Origin: Acidimicrobiaceae bacterium
Lineage (GTDB): Bacteria > Actinomycetota > Acidimicrobiia > Acidimicrobiales > Ilumatobacteraceae
Direction: 5' to 3'
Assembly: GCA_947447175.1 (NCBI GenBank)
Contig: CANFIM010000007.1
Span: forward strand, 1-40,836
DNA: 40,836 bases
In this document: positions 12,198 through 15,296 of the stretch, piece after piece
Layout of the letters: the number at the start of each line of letters is the position of its first letter
Position numbering within the stretch: the stretch's first letter is position 1
Notes under the pieces: model-generated
Seen by the model: only the letters and a program-made list of their open reading frames with translations
The model's database searches: none
What the model was told of the DNA's origin: nothing
Program-made: the position numbers and the translations under genes

Positions 12198-12277
12198 GTC
12201 CAGGCATGTGACGTATGTAACGGCTTGATACGGTTCTAGTTGTGGCTCGCGGGGGCGAGACGCAAGGGGGAATTCAT

Positions 12278-13903
12278 ATGTCCGGTTGGAACTACGCCGA
12301 ACTCTGGAAGGGCATTGCGAAAGCTGACCCTTCCCGTCCTGCTCAAATCTTTGGCGACAAGGTGTATTCGTGGGGGGATTTCCACAGTCGTGCGAATGCG
12401 CTCAGTGCAGACATGATCGCTTCGGGCTTAACTCATCAAGCCAAAGTGGCGCATTACTTGTACAACGCGCCGGAATACCTTGAGTCAACGTTTGCTTCTT
12501 GGCTCGGTGGCTTCGTGCCGGTCAACACCAACTATCGCTACGGTCCCGAAGAAATTCTGTACCTGTTCGACAACTCTGACGCAGAGGCTGTGGTTTTCCA
12601 TGCCGTGTTCGTTGATCTTGTCGACACGGTGCGCGAACGTTTGCCAAAAGTGAAGCGTTGGTACATGGTCTCTGATGAATCAGGTAACGCAGTGCCAACA
12701 TGGGCAGTTGACTACGAATCTGTTGTGTCGAAATCAACTCCTGATGTCACTCCAGTTGCACCCTATTCAGGCGACGACATGTTGTTCCTCTACACAGGCG
12801 GCACAACCGGCATGCCCAAAGGTGTGATGTGGCGTCAAGAAGATTTGATGATGGTGCTTGGTCGCGGGGGCAACGCTCTTACCCAGGTGCCACCAGGAGA
12901 CTCTGTTGAAGAACTGATTGCGCGCATCAAGCCAGGTGATGCAGGCATCGTCACACTCGTTGCGTGCCCGCTCATGCACGGCACCGGCGAATTCTCGGCG
13001 TTCATTGCATTGGCAATGGGTGGTTGCATCGTCACCATGCCGAACCGCAACTTCGACCCTGCAAAATTGTGGGACACCGTGGAACAACGCGCCGTCAACA
13101 CAATCGTGATTGTTGGCCAAGCTTTCGCCGGACCGATGCTCGAGTCCCTTGATGCAAACCCCGGAAGGTGGAACACCAGCAGCGTGATCCAAATGGGTTC
13201 ATCGGGTGTGATGTGGAGCCAGGAAAACAAAGATGCGTTGTTGAATCACATTCCGCAAATGCTCATCAGCGACAGCTTCGGTTCCTCCGAAGCCGTGGGT
13301 ATGGGAGTCTCCGTTTCTGCAAAGGGTGCAGCAGTAAAAACTGCACAGTTCGCCATTGGTCCTAACTGCGTGGTTTTCACCGAAGAGGGTGAGCGCGTGA
13401 AGCCAGGTTCTGGTGAGCGCGGACTTGTAGCTGTTGGTGGTGCAATCCCTATGGGCTATTACAAAGACGAAGTGAAGTCGGCACAAACATTTCGCATTTT
13501 TGAGGGTCGTCGTTGGACAGTGCCTGGTGACTGGGCCGAAGTGAATGAAGACGGCACCTTGCATCTGCTTGGTCGTGGCTCAGTGTGTATCAACACTGGC
13601 GGCGAAAAGGTGTTCCCCGAAGAAGTTGAGGAAGTGCTGAAGACGCATGCATCGGTACGCGATGCTGTGGCCGTCGGTATTCCTGATACTCGATTTGGCG
13701 AAACCATCTGTGCAGTGGTTGAACCAGAGCCAGGCCAATCGCCGACACTCGACGAACTGTCTGCGCACGTGAAGACCCGACTTGCTGCATACAAGGCCCC
13801 ACGAAATGTGGTGGTGATTTCCACCATTGGCCGTGCGCCGAACGGCAAGGTGGACTACAAGCGCCTGAAGCAGCACGCCATGGACCACCTTGGGGTCAAG
13901 TAA
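12278..13903 (+). CDS. Acyl-CoA synthetase (FadD-type, AMP-forming)
   Basis: 541-residue member of the ANL superfamily, which activates carboxylic acids to acyl-CoA through an acyl-AMP. Motifs: YTGGTTGMPKG (172-182, P-loop-like) followed by VMWRQEDL, an actinobacterial signature; SDSFGSSEA; the hinge-region GDWAEVNEDGTLHLLGRG; GGEKVFPEEVE; and the C-terminal catalytic lysine in APNGKVDYK. The VMWRQ segment recalls FadD proteins used for steroid or branched side chains, but the substrate is not readable. ATG 12278 has an AAGGGGG site. It lies between the kinase gene and the metX leader, and no terminator was seen on either side. Confidence 0.92.
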   Translation: MSGWNYAELWKGIAKADPSRPAQIFGDKVYSWGDFHSRANALSADMIASGLTHQAKVAHYLYNAPEYLESTFASWLGGFVPVNTNYRYGPEEILYLFDNSDAEAVVFHAVFVDLVDTVRERLPKVKRWYMVSDESGNAVPTWAVDYESVVSKSTPDVTPVAPYSGDDMLFLYTGGTTGMPKGVMWRQEDLMMVLGRGGNALTQVPPGDSVEELIARIKPGDAGIVTLVACPLMHGTGEFSAFIALAMGGCIVTMPNRNFDPAKLWDTVEQRAVNTIVIVGQAFAGPMLESLDANPGRWNTSSVIQMGSSGVMWSQENKDALLNHIPQMLISDSFGSSEAVGMGVSVSAKGAAVKTAQFAIGPNCVVFTEEGERVKPGSGERGLVAVGGAIPMGYYKDEVKSAQTFRIFEGRRWTVPGDWAEVNEDGTLHLLGRGSVCINTGGEKVFPEEVEEVLKTHASVRDAVAVGIPDTRFGETICAVVEPEPGQSPTLDELSAHVKTRLAAYKAPRNVVVISTIGRAPNGKVDYKRLKQHAMDHLGVK

Positions 13904-13941
13904 TCCTCATAAATCTCCCGCATAGCCAGCTTTTCAACCGC

Positions 13942-13947
13942 TAGCCT
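13942..13947 (+). promoter_or_regulatory. Candidate -10 box of the metX riboswitch transcript
   Basis: TAGCCT lies 4 bases before the first base of the predicted riboswitch P1 stem, so transcription would start at or just inside the aptamer. No good -35 box was found. Confidence 0.45.
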
Positions 13948-13951
13948 TTGG

Positions 13952-14036
13952 AATCGCATTAGGAGAGACCGAAAGGTCCGGCAACCGGGGTTACAGCCGC
14001 ACGGTGCCTCCTCATCGAAAGATGAGGGATGTGGTT
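13952..14036 (+). ncRNA. SAM-clan riboswitch aptamer upstream of metX (SAM-I/IV-like)
   Basis: The leader of metX folds as a four-way-junction SAM aptamer. P1 pairs 13952-13959 with 14029-14036 (8 bp with three G-U pairs). J1/2 has the AGGAGA segment. P2 is a short GACC-GAAA-GGTC hairpin (13967-13978). Then comes the clan core CGGCAACCG, with P3 (ACCG with CGGT, 13984-13987 and 14002-14005) and GGTGCC. P4 is a 7-bp hairpin with a GAAA loop (14010-14027) followed by GAT. The very short P2, with no room for a kink-turn and P2 loop pseudoknot, points to the SAM-I/IV-variant type rather than classical SAM-I. The gene downstream is methionine biosynthetic, as expected. Confidence 0.8.
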
Positions 14037-14062
14037 TCGCAGCCAGCGAAACAACAGGTCGC

Positions 14063-14096
14063 CTCCTTTGTGTCAGAACAACACACCGAAAAGGAG
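14063..14096 (+). promoter_or_regulatory. SD-sequestering hairpin, expression platform of the metX riboswitch
   Basis: CTCCTT (14063-14068) pairs with the metX ribosome-binding site AAGGAG (14091-14096), extended by TGTGT with ACACA (14069-14073 with 14081-14085) across a 5-base bulge. This would hide the binding site. The competing pairing is AGGAG/GACC of J1/2-P2 (13961-13970) with GGTC/CTCCT (14057-14067), which cannot coexist with the aptamer. The prediction is that SAM binding blocks translation. Confidence 0.6.
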
Positions 14097-14102
14097 ATGA
14101 AG

Positions 14103-15296
14103 ATGCCGCACATTCCACGTCATGATGCACGTCCGTATCCAGTTTCTGGCGGTTGGCATGACGGTGATGCTTCGGGTCATCGTCAGTTCTACACCTTTGC
14201 TACCGACCGCCCTTTCTCCTTGGAAAGCGGTAGTTCTCTCACCAATGTGACAGTGGCATATGAAACGTGGGGAACGCTTAACGACAGTGCGTCAAATGCG
14301 ATTTTGGTGTGTCACGCGTGGACAGGGGATAGTCACGCAGCAGGTTCTGCCACGAACGGTCACCCCACTCCCGGTTGGTGGGAAGGCGTTGTCGGACCCG
14401 GACACTCCATCGACACAAACAAATACTTTGTGGTCTGTGTGAATGTGCTTGGCGGTTGTCAAGGTTCAACGGGGCCGTCATCTCTGCATCCAGTCGATGG
14501 CAAACCGTACGCACGTCGTTTTCCTGTTGTCACTATTCGAGACATGGTGCGGGCACAGGCACACCTCGCTGATGCGTTGGGAATCAAAACGTGGCGCGCA
14601 GTAGTTGGCGGTTCAATGGGCGGCATGCAGGCGCTGGAGTGGGCCATCACGTTCCCTGATCGTGTTCGTTCACTTGTCGCTATCGCTACAACAATGGAAG
14701 CAAGTGCTCAACAAATTGCGTGGGGTGCAATAGGTCGTCGTGCCCTGGTAATGGATCCTGCCTATAACGACGGCAACTATTACGACGCAGATGATGACAA
14801 TGGCCCTTGGACCGGGCTATCTATTGCTCGCATGATTGCGCAAGTCACGTTTCGCACTGACTCAAAGTTCAACGAAAAATTCGGACGCCGCTTGCGTGAT
14901 CAACACTTTGGACCAGAAGGAATAGATCTCTTTTCTCGTTTCGATGTTGAGGGCTACCTCGATCATCACGGAGACAAATTGGTGCGTCGATTTGACGCAA
15001 ACAGTTACTTGTACATCGGAAAAGCAATGGACTTACATGACGTAGGTCGCGGACGCGGTGGCACTGCTGAAGCAATGAAGCGCATCAAGGCACCCACCCT
15101 CACCATCTCTATTGATTCCGACATCTTGTATCCCGCCTATCAACAAGAAGCCATTCAGGCTGCACTTGTTAACAACGATCCACGAAACAAGCACGTAGAA
15201 ATTCAGAGTGTTGAAGGACATGATGGGTTCTTGCTGGAACTCATTCCCATCAATCTTCATATTTCAGAGTTTTTTGCCTCCACCGAAGGGGTCTAG
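14103..15296 (+). CDS. metX: Homoserine O-acetyltransferase
   Basis: Alpha/beta-hydrolase-fold enzyme transferring an acyl group (acetyl or succinyl) to homoserine in methionine synthesis. 397 residues, the usual length. VGGSMGGMQALEW carries the nucleophile S171; the acid is near SIDSDILYP (D338/D340) and the base in EGHDGFLLE (H373). AYETWGTLN, CHAWTGDSH and WWEGVVGPG are family motifs. ATG 14103 is chosen because AAGGAG sits 6 bases upstream; ATG 14097 would abut the site. Acetyl versus succinyl specificity is not decided here. The SAM riboswitch leader indicates feedback by the end product. A PLP enzyme of the sulfhydrylase family lies at 37861-39018. Confidence 0.95.
   Translation: MPHIPRHDARPYPVSGGWHDGDASGHRQFYTFATDRPFSLESGSSLTNVTVAYETWGTLNDSASNAILVCHAWTGDSHAAGSATNGHPTPGWWEGVVGPGHSIDTNKYFVVCVNVLGGCQGSTGPSSLHPVDGKPYARRFPVVTIRDMVRAQAHLADALGIKTWRAVVGGSMGGMQALEWAITFPDRVRSLVAIATTMEASAQQIAWGAIGRRALVMDPAYNDGNYYDADDDNGPWTGLSIARMIAQVTFRTDSKFNEKFGRRLRDQHFGPEGIDLFSRFDVEGYLDHHGDKLVRRFDANSYLYIGKAMDLHDVGRGRGGTAEAMKRIKAPTLTISIDSDILYPAYQQEAIQAALVNNDPRNKHVEIQSVEGHDGFLLELIPINLHISEFFASTEGV

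Follow-up and report, generated by a model that had tools for sequence, protein, structure and literature searches.

The metX leader and its aptamer

The window, by which we mean the whole stretch of 40,836 nucleotides that was analyzed, comes from a freshwater actinobacterium in which the leader of the methionine-synthesis gene metX matches a known type of S-adenosylmethionine (SAM) sensor. The metX product was identified as homoserine O-acetyltransferase by NF001209 (484.8 bits against a cut-off of 331) and by its PDB relatives, and its score with TIGR01392 was 450.6 bits, under the cut-off of 500 for that model. The probable start is the ATG at 14103, with AAGGAG (14091-14096) 6 nt before it. 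The upstream gene (12242-13903) gave a match to an acyl-CoA synthetase model, and 52 nt separate its end from P1; a search of 13850-14200 revealed no sigma-70-like promoter. Among named relatives, the one nearest to the metX protein (89%) belongs to an Ilumatobacteraceae metagenome-assembled genome (MAG), in a list that may omit the records closest to the window genome. MAG records titled Bifidobacterium breve (L151, L152, L194, L209 and L222) also carry metX proteins 61-78% identical to that of the window; these resemble the surrounding Ilumatobacteraceae MAGs, and the titles seem to be mislabelled.

The features of the leader and gene are as follows.

13956-14033, plus strand: P1, with the 5' strand 13956-13960 paired with 14028-14032 (RF01725 alignment, minimum free energy fold)
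13961-13966, plus strand: J1/2 (AGGAGA), which in the alternative fold is paired with the tail
13967-13978, plus strand: P2, 4 bp (GACC/GGUC) with a GAAA loop and without an internal loop (RF01725 alignment, fold)
13980-14008, plus strand: P3 with loop L3 (RF01725 alignment, fold)
14010-14027, plus strand: P4, 7 bp with a GAAA loop (fold)
14034-14052, plus strand: P5 hairpin, 7 bp, 14034-14040 paired with 14046-14052 (P5 of the model, folds)
14057-14073, plus strand: putative switch strand of the tail, whose alternative partner is the aptamer 5' strand; 14063-14073 otherwise pairs in the RBS hairpin
14063-14096, plus strand: RBS hairpin, anti-SD CUCCUU (14063-14068) paired with AAGGAG (14091-14096) and UGUGU (14069-14073) with ACACA (14081-14085)
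14091-14096, plus strand: Shine-Dalgarno (SD) sequence AAGGAG of metX
14103-15296, plus strand: metX, homoserine O-acetyltransferase, 397 aa (NF001209, PDB relatives)

The SAM-I/IV covariance model (RF01725) matched positions 13951-14068 on the plus strand with 46.6 bits, above its gathering score of 41.1. SAM-I/IV was the sole SAM-clan family listed by cmscan, two lower-scoring overlapping matches having been dropped from the output. An earlier note, made from the letters of this stretch, had predicted a compact SAM aptamer at 13952-14036 and had proposed an Rfam search to check it; the aptamer was found where the note placed it, and the search named SAM-I/IV as the family. The folding of the aptamer stretch (z of -4.68) was equaled by none of 200 shuffles, and a P2 without an internal loop, P4 and P5 are present, as in SAM-I/IV. 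P1 could be extended to 13952-13960 paired with 14028-14036 if P5 were unformed. In the SAM clan, J1/2 corresponds to a strand at the ligand pocket.

SAM-IV (RF00634) was ruled out on the plain 4-bp P2 and the presence of P4, and SAM-I (RF00162) on the 4-bp P2 with its tetraloop and the lack of a long kink-turn P2; neither family was among the reported matches, from which lower overlapping clan matches had been dropped. As described in the available text of PMC6890682, SAM-IV shares with the window the SAM-clan core, a P5 hairpin after P1 and occurrence in actinobacteria, but it has no P4, and its P2 is divided, with PK-1. The SAM-I/IV aptamer class is already known (Weinberg 2010, PMC2864571). 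Judged by the accessible parts of that paper and of the report on the solved RNA (4L81, PMC5393176), the window has the same undivided P2, P4, P5 and downstream methionine/SAM-pathway gene, but it has no evident PK-2, and both the aptamer 5' strand and the SD sequence compete for a separate strand of its tail.

PK-2, the pairing of L3 with the tail after P5, is a hallmark of both SAM-I/IV and SAM-IV in the text available from PMC6890682 and in the solved RNA sequence of PMC5393176. The earlier note left this pseudoknot out of its account, and in the window the pairing of L3 with the tail was at chance level (z of 0.04, p of 0.47). By eye, three bases (TGT) are missing from the window tail (14053-14068) where the relative L039 forms PK-2 (GACAGC with GCUGUC), and L045, the nearest relative of the window, has a broken version. 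From these comparisons, PK-2 in the window may be either very short or lost.

Tail pairings and predicted openness of the SD sequence

Two pairings compete for one strand of the window tail. The RBS hairpin has an energy of -8.6 kcal/mol (z of -2.14; 9 of 200 shuffles equaled it), and the longer stretch 14057-14105 had a z of just -1.35 (20 of 200 shuffles). The alternative helix joins AGGAG to CUCCU (13961-13965 with 14063-14067) and GACC to GGUC (13967-13970 with 14057-14060), giving a core of 5 and 4 bp that flank a 1x2 internal loop. A further GCAU-GUGU pairing with two G-U pairs (13956-13959 with 14070-14073) lengthens the helix to 13 bp, at -16.6 kcal/mol. The hairpin and this third pairing were both recovered at the positions that the earlier note had proposed for them. 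The aptamer 5' strand of the window paired with its tail better than with 300 shuffled tails (z of -2.98, p of 0.010); against 120 tails swapped in from other genera, the pairing was not significant alone (p of 0.125). The search for an intrinsic terminator returned a single pattern match, on P4 of the aptamer (14009-14028), against 0.5 matches expected from shuffles. The leader thus has no convincing intrinsic terminator, in agreement with the earlier note.

In the switch that these pairings suggest, SAM would allow the aptamer to form, and the tail strand 14063-14073 could then close the RBS hairpin, covering AAGGAG and so turning metX down. Without SAM, the tail (14057-14073) would pair with the P1 5' strand, J1/2 and the P2 5' strand (13956-13970); this alternative helix would destroy the SAM site, occupy the anti-SD strand and expose the SD sequence, turning metX on. 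The expected direction agrees with the role of the gene, since metX is biosynthetic and SAM would be expected to repress it.

In the folding models of the window, the unpaired probability of the SD sequence was 0.09 when the aptamer was forced and 0.61 when the alternative helix was forced. None of 12 shuffled tails gave a difference as large as this 0.52 (highest 0.31). The two constrained ensembles were close in energy, -57.3 kcal/mol for the aptamer and -58.6 kcal/mol for the alternative helix; the unconstrained ensemble had -62.6 kcal/mol and left the SD sequence 0.12 unpaired. The window is thus predicted to have the features of a translational platform, in which the SD sequence is hidden by the anti-SD strand in one fold and the anti-SD strand is taken by the aptamer strand in the other. 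When the chance-level duplex between L3 and the tail was held formed, the SD sequence of the window was 0.60 unpaired in the aptamer state, and the predicted difference vanished. The unconstrained fold also paired GCAUU of the P1 5' strand (13956-13960) with GAUGC (about 14102-14106) over the metX start codon, possibly by chance.

Control of this kind is ordinary in its mechanism. Translation attenuation by alternative pairing is a standard category in the available text of PMC2258182, in which the ligand likewise determines whether the SD sequence is covered by an anti-SD strand; that text treats a general category, and the survey is older than SAM-I/IV. The SAM-I riboswitch of the Xanthomonas met operon, to judge from the accessible part of PMC7270179, is also a SAM-responsive met-gene leader that acts, mainly, on translation through SD and anti-SD strands, as is predicted here. 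It differs in having a SAM-I aptamer, in belonging to another phylum and in sensing initiator tRNA as well, and its published model keeps the SD sequence sequestered without SAM.

Conservation of the shared strand

RF01725 matched 117 of the 150 family genomes (97 above the cut-off) and 29 of the 32 genomes of the genus (23 above the cut-off). Among 146 loci, 133 had metX downstream; the other 13, without a metX match, were dropped (two of these, L062 and L085, stop too soon to judge). The 133 leaders were parsed and 6 duplicates removed, which left 127 distinct leaders from 21 genera. Start codons were assigned automatically, and that of L137 is probably wrong. The 18-nt aptamer 5' strand of each leader was compared with the first 34 nt of its tail, against shuffles.

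The pairing of the aptamer 5' strand with the tail had a mean z of -2.16, with p<0.05 in 70 and p<0.01 in 38 of the 127 leaders, and the genus mean was negative in all 21 genera. When tails were permuted at the genus level, none of 2000 permutations was as good as the own tails (-17.83 kcal/mol, against -14.90 for exchanged tails). Control pairings gave no such signal: 1321 of 2000 permutations were as good for the 5' strand with the SD sequence, 766 for P5 with the tail and 1067 for P3/P4 with the tail. The pairing of the SD sequence with the tail was conserved (24 of 2000 permutations as good across genera, 2 of 5000 within the genus), and that of L3 with the tail weakly so (71 of 2000 and 44 of 5000). 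Within the 28 leaders of the window's genus, 159 of 5000 permutations were as good for the aptamer 5' strand. The 18-mer of the aptamer that pairs best with the tail starts at the 5' side in 71 of 127 leaders and elsewhere in 56. A swap test on each sequence reached p<=0.05 in just 16 of 127, with own tails better than swapped ones on average in 19 of 21 genera; this test is weak because the tails of other genera retain similar complementarity, and it was superseded by the genus-level permutation and the sub-segment tests.

Division of the strand located the signal. None of 1000 permutations was as good for P1 with J1/2 (7 nt), 5 for P1 alone and 35 for the AxGAG core, whereas 394 were as good for the P2 side tested alone; therefore, P1 and J1/2 carry the signal, and the P2 side by itself does not. 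Support for the alternative helix is strongest in the P1 5' strand with J1/2, of which the segment in the earlier note, J1/2 with the P2 5' strand, covered half. GAG was paired in register in 92 of 127 leaders, which is not above exchange (72% against 67%, highest 76%). Among these 92, the variable J1/2 base formed a Watson-Crick pair with its partner in 56, beyond the mean of 40% and the maximum of 53% in 200 tail exchanges. J1/2 occurs as AGGAG, AAGAG, ACGAG, CAGAG and other variants, and the tail often covaries; within the genus, leaders with AGGAG have CUCCU in the tail and those with AAGAG have CUCUU. The idea that AGGAG mimics the SD sequence thus applies to only some of the members.

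In the folding models, the alternative fold opened the SD sequence in 96 of 127 leaders and in 18 of 21 genera, the other three showing the opposite; openness did not rise in genera g6 and g10. With PK-2 held, the expected direction was seen in just 63 of 127 leaders and 12 genera, and 8 genera were opposite. With shuffled tails the effect kept its sign but was smaller (0.104, while own tails gave 0.218); own tails had the larger effect in just 12 of 21 genera, and 23 of 2000 nulls reached the genus-mean effect. The alternative helix and the SD pairing shared more tail bases than expected in 20 of the 21 genera (6.67 nt, expectation 4.22 nt), a result that pyrimidine-rich tails would also produce. 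The direction proposed in the earlier note, with SAM turning the gene off, is thus predicted clearly for the window as long as PK-2 is left out, and only modestly for the genera as a whole; on these models support for the OFF direction is good for the window and moderate for the family, and otherwise comes from the biosynthetic role of metX.

A class-wide search found RF01725 in 96 of 296 genomes. In g79, a small-genome genus of the same class and a different order, the best 30 loci gave 46 leaders, 43 of them distinct. The 5' strand with the tail had a mean z of -1.93 in these 43 leaders (p<0.05 in 19), and the SD sequence with the tail a mean of -1.12 (p<0.05 in 4). None of 5000 permutations was as good for the 14 metK-like leaders, and 337 of 5000 were as good for the other 29, which have low variation; the sorting used the letters VTAET rather than a family search, and one ITAET leader landed in the other group. 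In L229, AUGGAGAGAG pairs with CUCUCUCCAU of a tail that is also able to pair with the SD sequence.

Of the 45 matches outside the family and g79, 40 were read by eye only, 23 of them with a metX match; the five left out were partial, secondary or low-scoring (G199, G342, G370 and the second hits of G338 and G188). Several of the 40 leaders appear by eye to use other platforms, and therefore the shared-strand design is not universal in the class. L287 and L290, which have weak RF01725 matches and look SAM-I-like by eye, carry the SD sequence GAGGAGG in the P1 3' strand, as for direct occlusion.

The third pairing predicted for the metX leader is accordingly conserved in relatives, negative in z throughout the 21 genera and found again outside the order, while the P2 part that the earlier note had included is unsupported alone. 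With a SAM-clan model above its threshold and this conservation in relatives, neither of the two outcomes that the earlier note had named as refuting its reading was observed. What was computed here is the aptamer class, two competing pairings of one strand and the conservation of both.

The genome of the window holds a second SAM-I/IV match of 53.9 bits (L001/L227, G000:C36:1216-1323, minus strand of the contig), which precedes a 110-aa open frame whose protein has no Pfam match. In relatives within the genus, this second match stands before cysteine-containing proteins of 160-166 aa. Its tail GATGTCTCC is, by eye, complementary both to the P1 5' strand GACATC and to the SD region GGAGAC. As to a phage origin of the gene behind it, a viral scan with a translated 55-aa stretch of L004 gave one weak relative, and the remaining open frames on L227 bore no phage sign by eye.

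Explanations for the pairing and its meaning

The window leader is probably a SAM-I/IV riboswitch acting on the translation of metX; from the aptamer and its competing pairings we infer that it binds SAM, that it switches, and that SAM turns metX off. Most likely, the leader lowers metX when SAM is plentiful. J1/2 is purine-rich like the SD sequence, and therefore the pairing of a real aptamer with the tail could be a by-product of an anti-SD tail, SAM acting through PK-2 or by stabilizing the neighborhood of the RBS hairpin. The purine-rich GAG core would fit this, as would the window duplex not being significant against the tails of other genera (p of 0.125), the unsupported P2 side (394 of 1000) and the unconstrained ensemble, in which the SD sequence is mostly paired (0.12 open). 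Splitting the strand answers the point in part: the signal lies in P1 with J1/2, outside the SD-like core (0 of 1000, and 5 of 1000 for P1 alone), while the control of the 5' strand with the SD sequence is null (1321 of 2000) and the metK-like leaders of another order show the same pattern. We regard a by-product as unlikely.

The 2014 study of the solved SAM-I/IV RNA by Trausch reportedly proposed that PK-2 occludes the SD sequence. Such direct occlusion, with SAM stabilizing a PK-2 that hides the SD sequence, is extremely unlikely for the window, where 38 nt separate P5 from the SD sequence, which puts the latter beyond the PK-2 region, and where L3 pairs with the tail at chance level. In favor of this reading, PK-2 is a feature of the class (in the available text of PMC6890682), the pairing of L3 with the tail is weakly conserved (71 of 2000; within the genus 44 of 5000), and in members of some other families, such as L281, L289, L291 and L293, by eye the SD sequence directly follows the PK-2 strand. 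We judge control at transcription, such as termination by Rho within the leader upon a translation block, to be very unlikely. It is compatible with the sequence, and translational and Rho-dependent control frequently co-occur; against it stand the lack of an intrinsic terminator beyond the pattern match on P4 and the pairing of the SD sequence in the predicted SAM state.

Returning to translational control through the shared strand, it is possible, and we put it forward tentatively, that SAM-I/IV members of the class (in the window's family at metX, in g79 at the metK-like and a second gene) share an undescribed platform. One tail strand would be complementary both to the aptamer 5' strand, including J1/2, and to the SD sequence, so that the pocket and the SD sequence compete for it; the window lineage may rely on this competition alone, having given up PK-2. 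We found no earlier description of this conserved tail design for SAM-I/IV in the part of the open literature that was searched, and its novelty is thus only weakly supported.

The leader offers a compact, testable design for the action of SAM-I/IV on translation, in which the ligand pocket and the ribosome-binding site share one strand, and the natural variants from 21 genera are available as a guide to mutants. Should PK-2 truly be missing from this lineage, the leader would show whether the pseudoknot is needed for SAM sensing.
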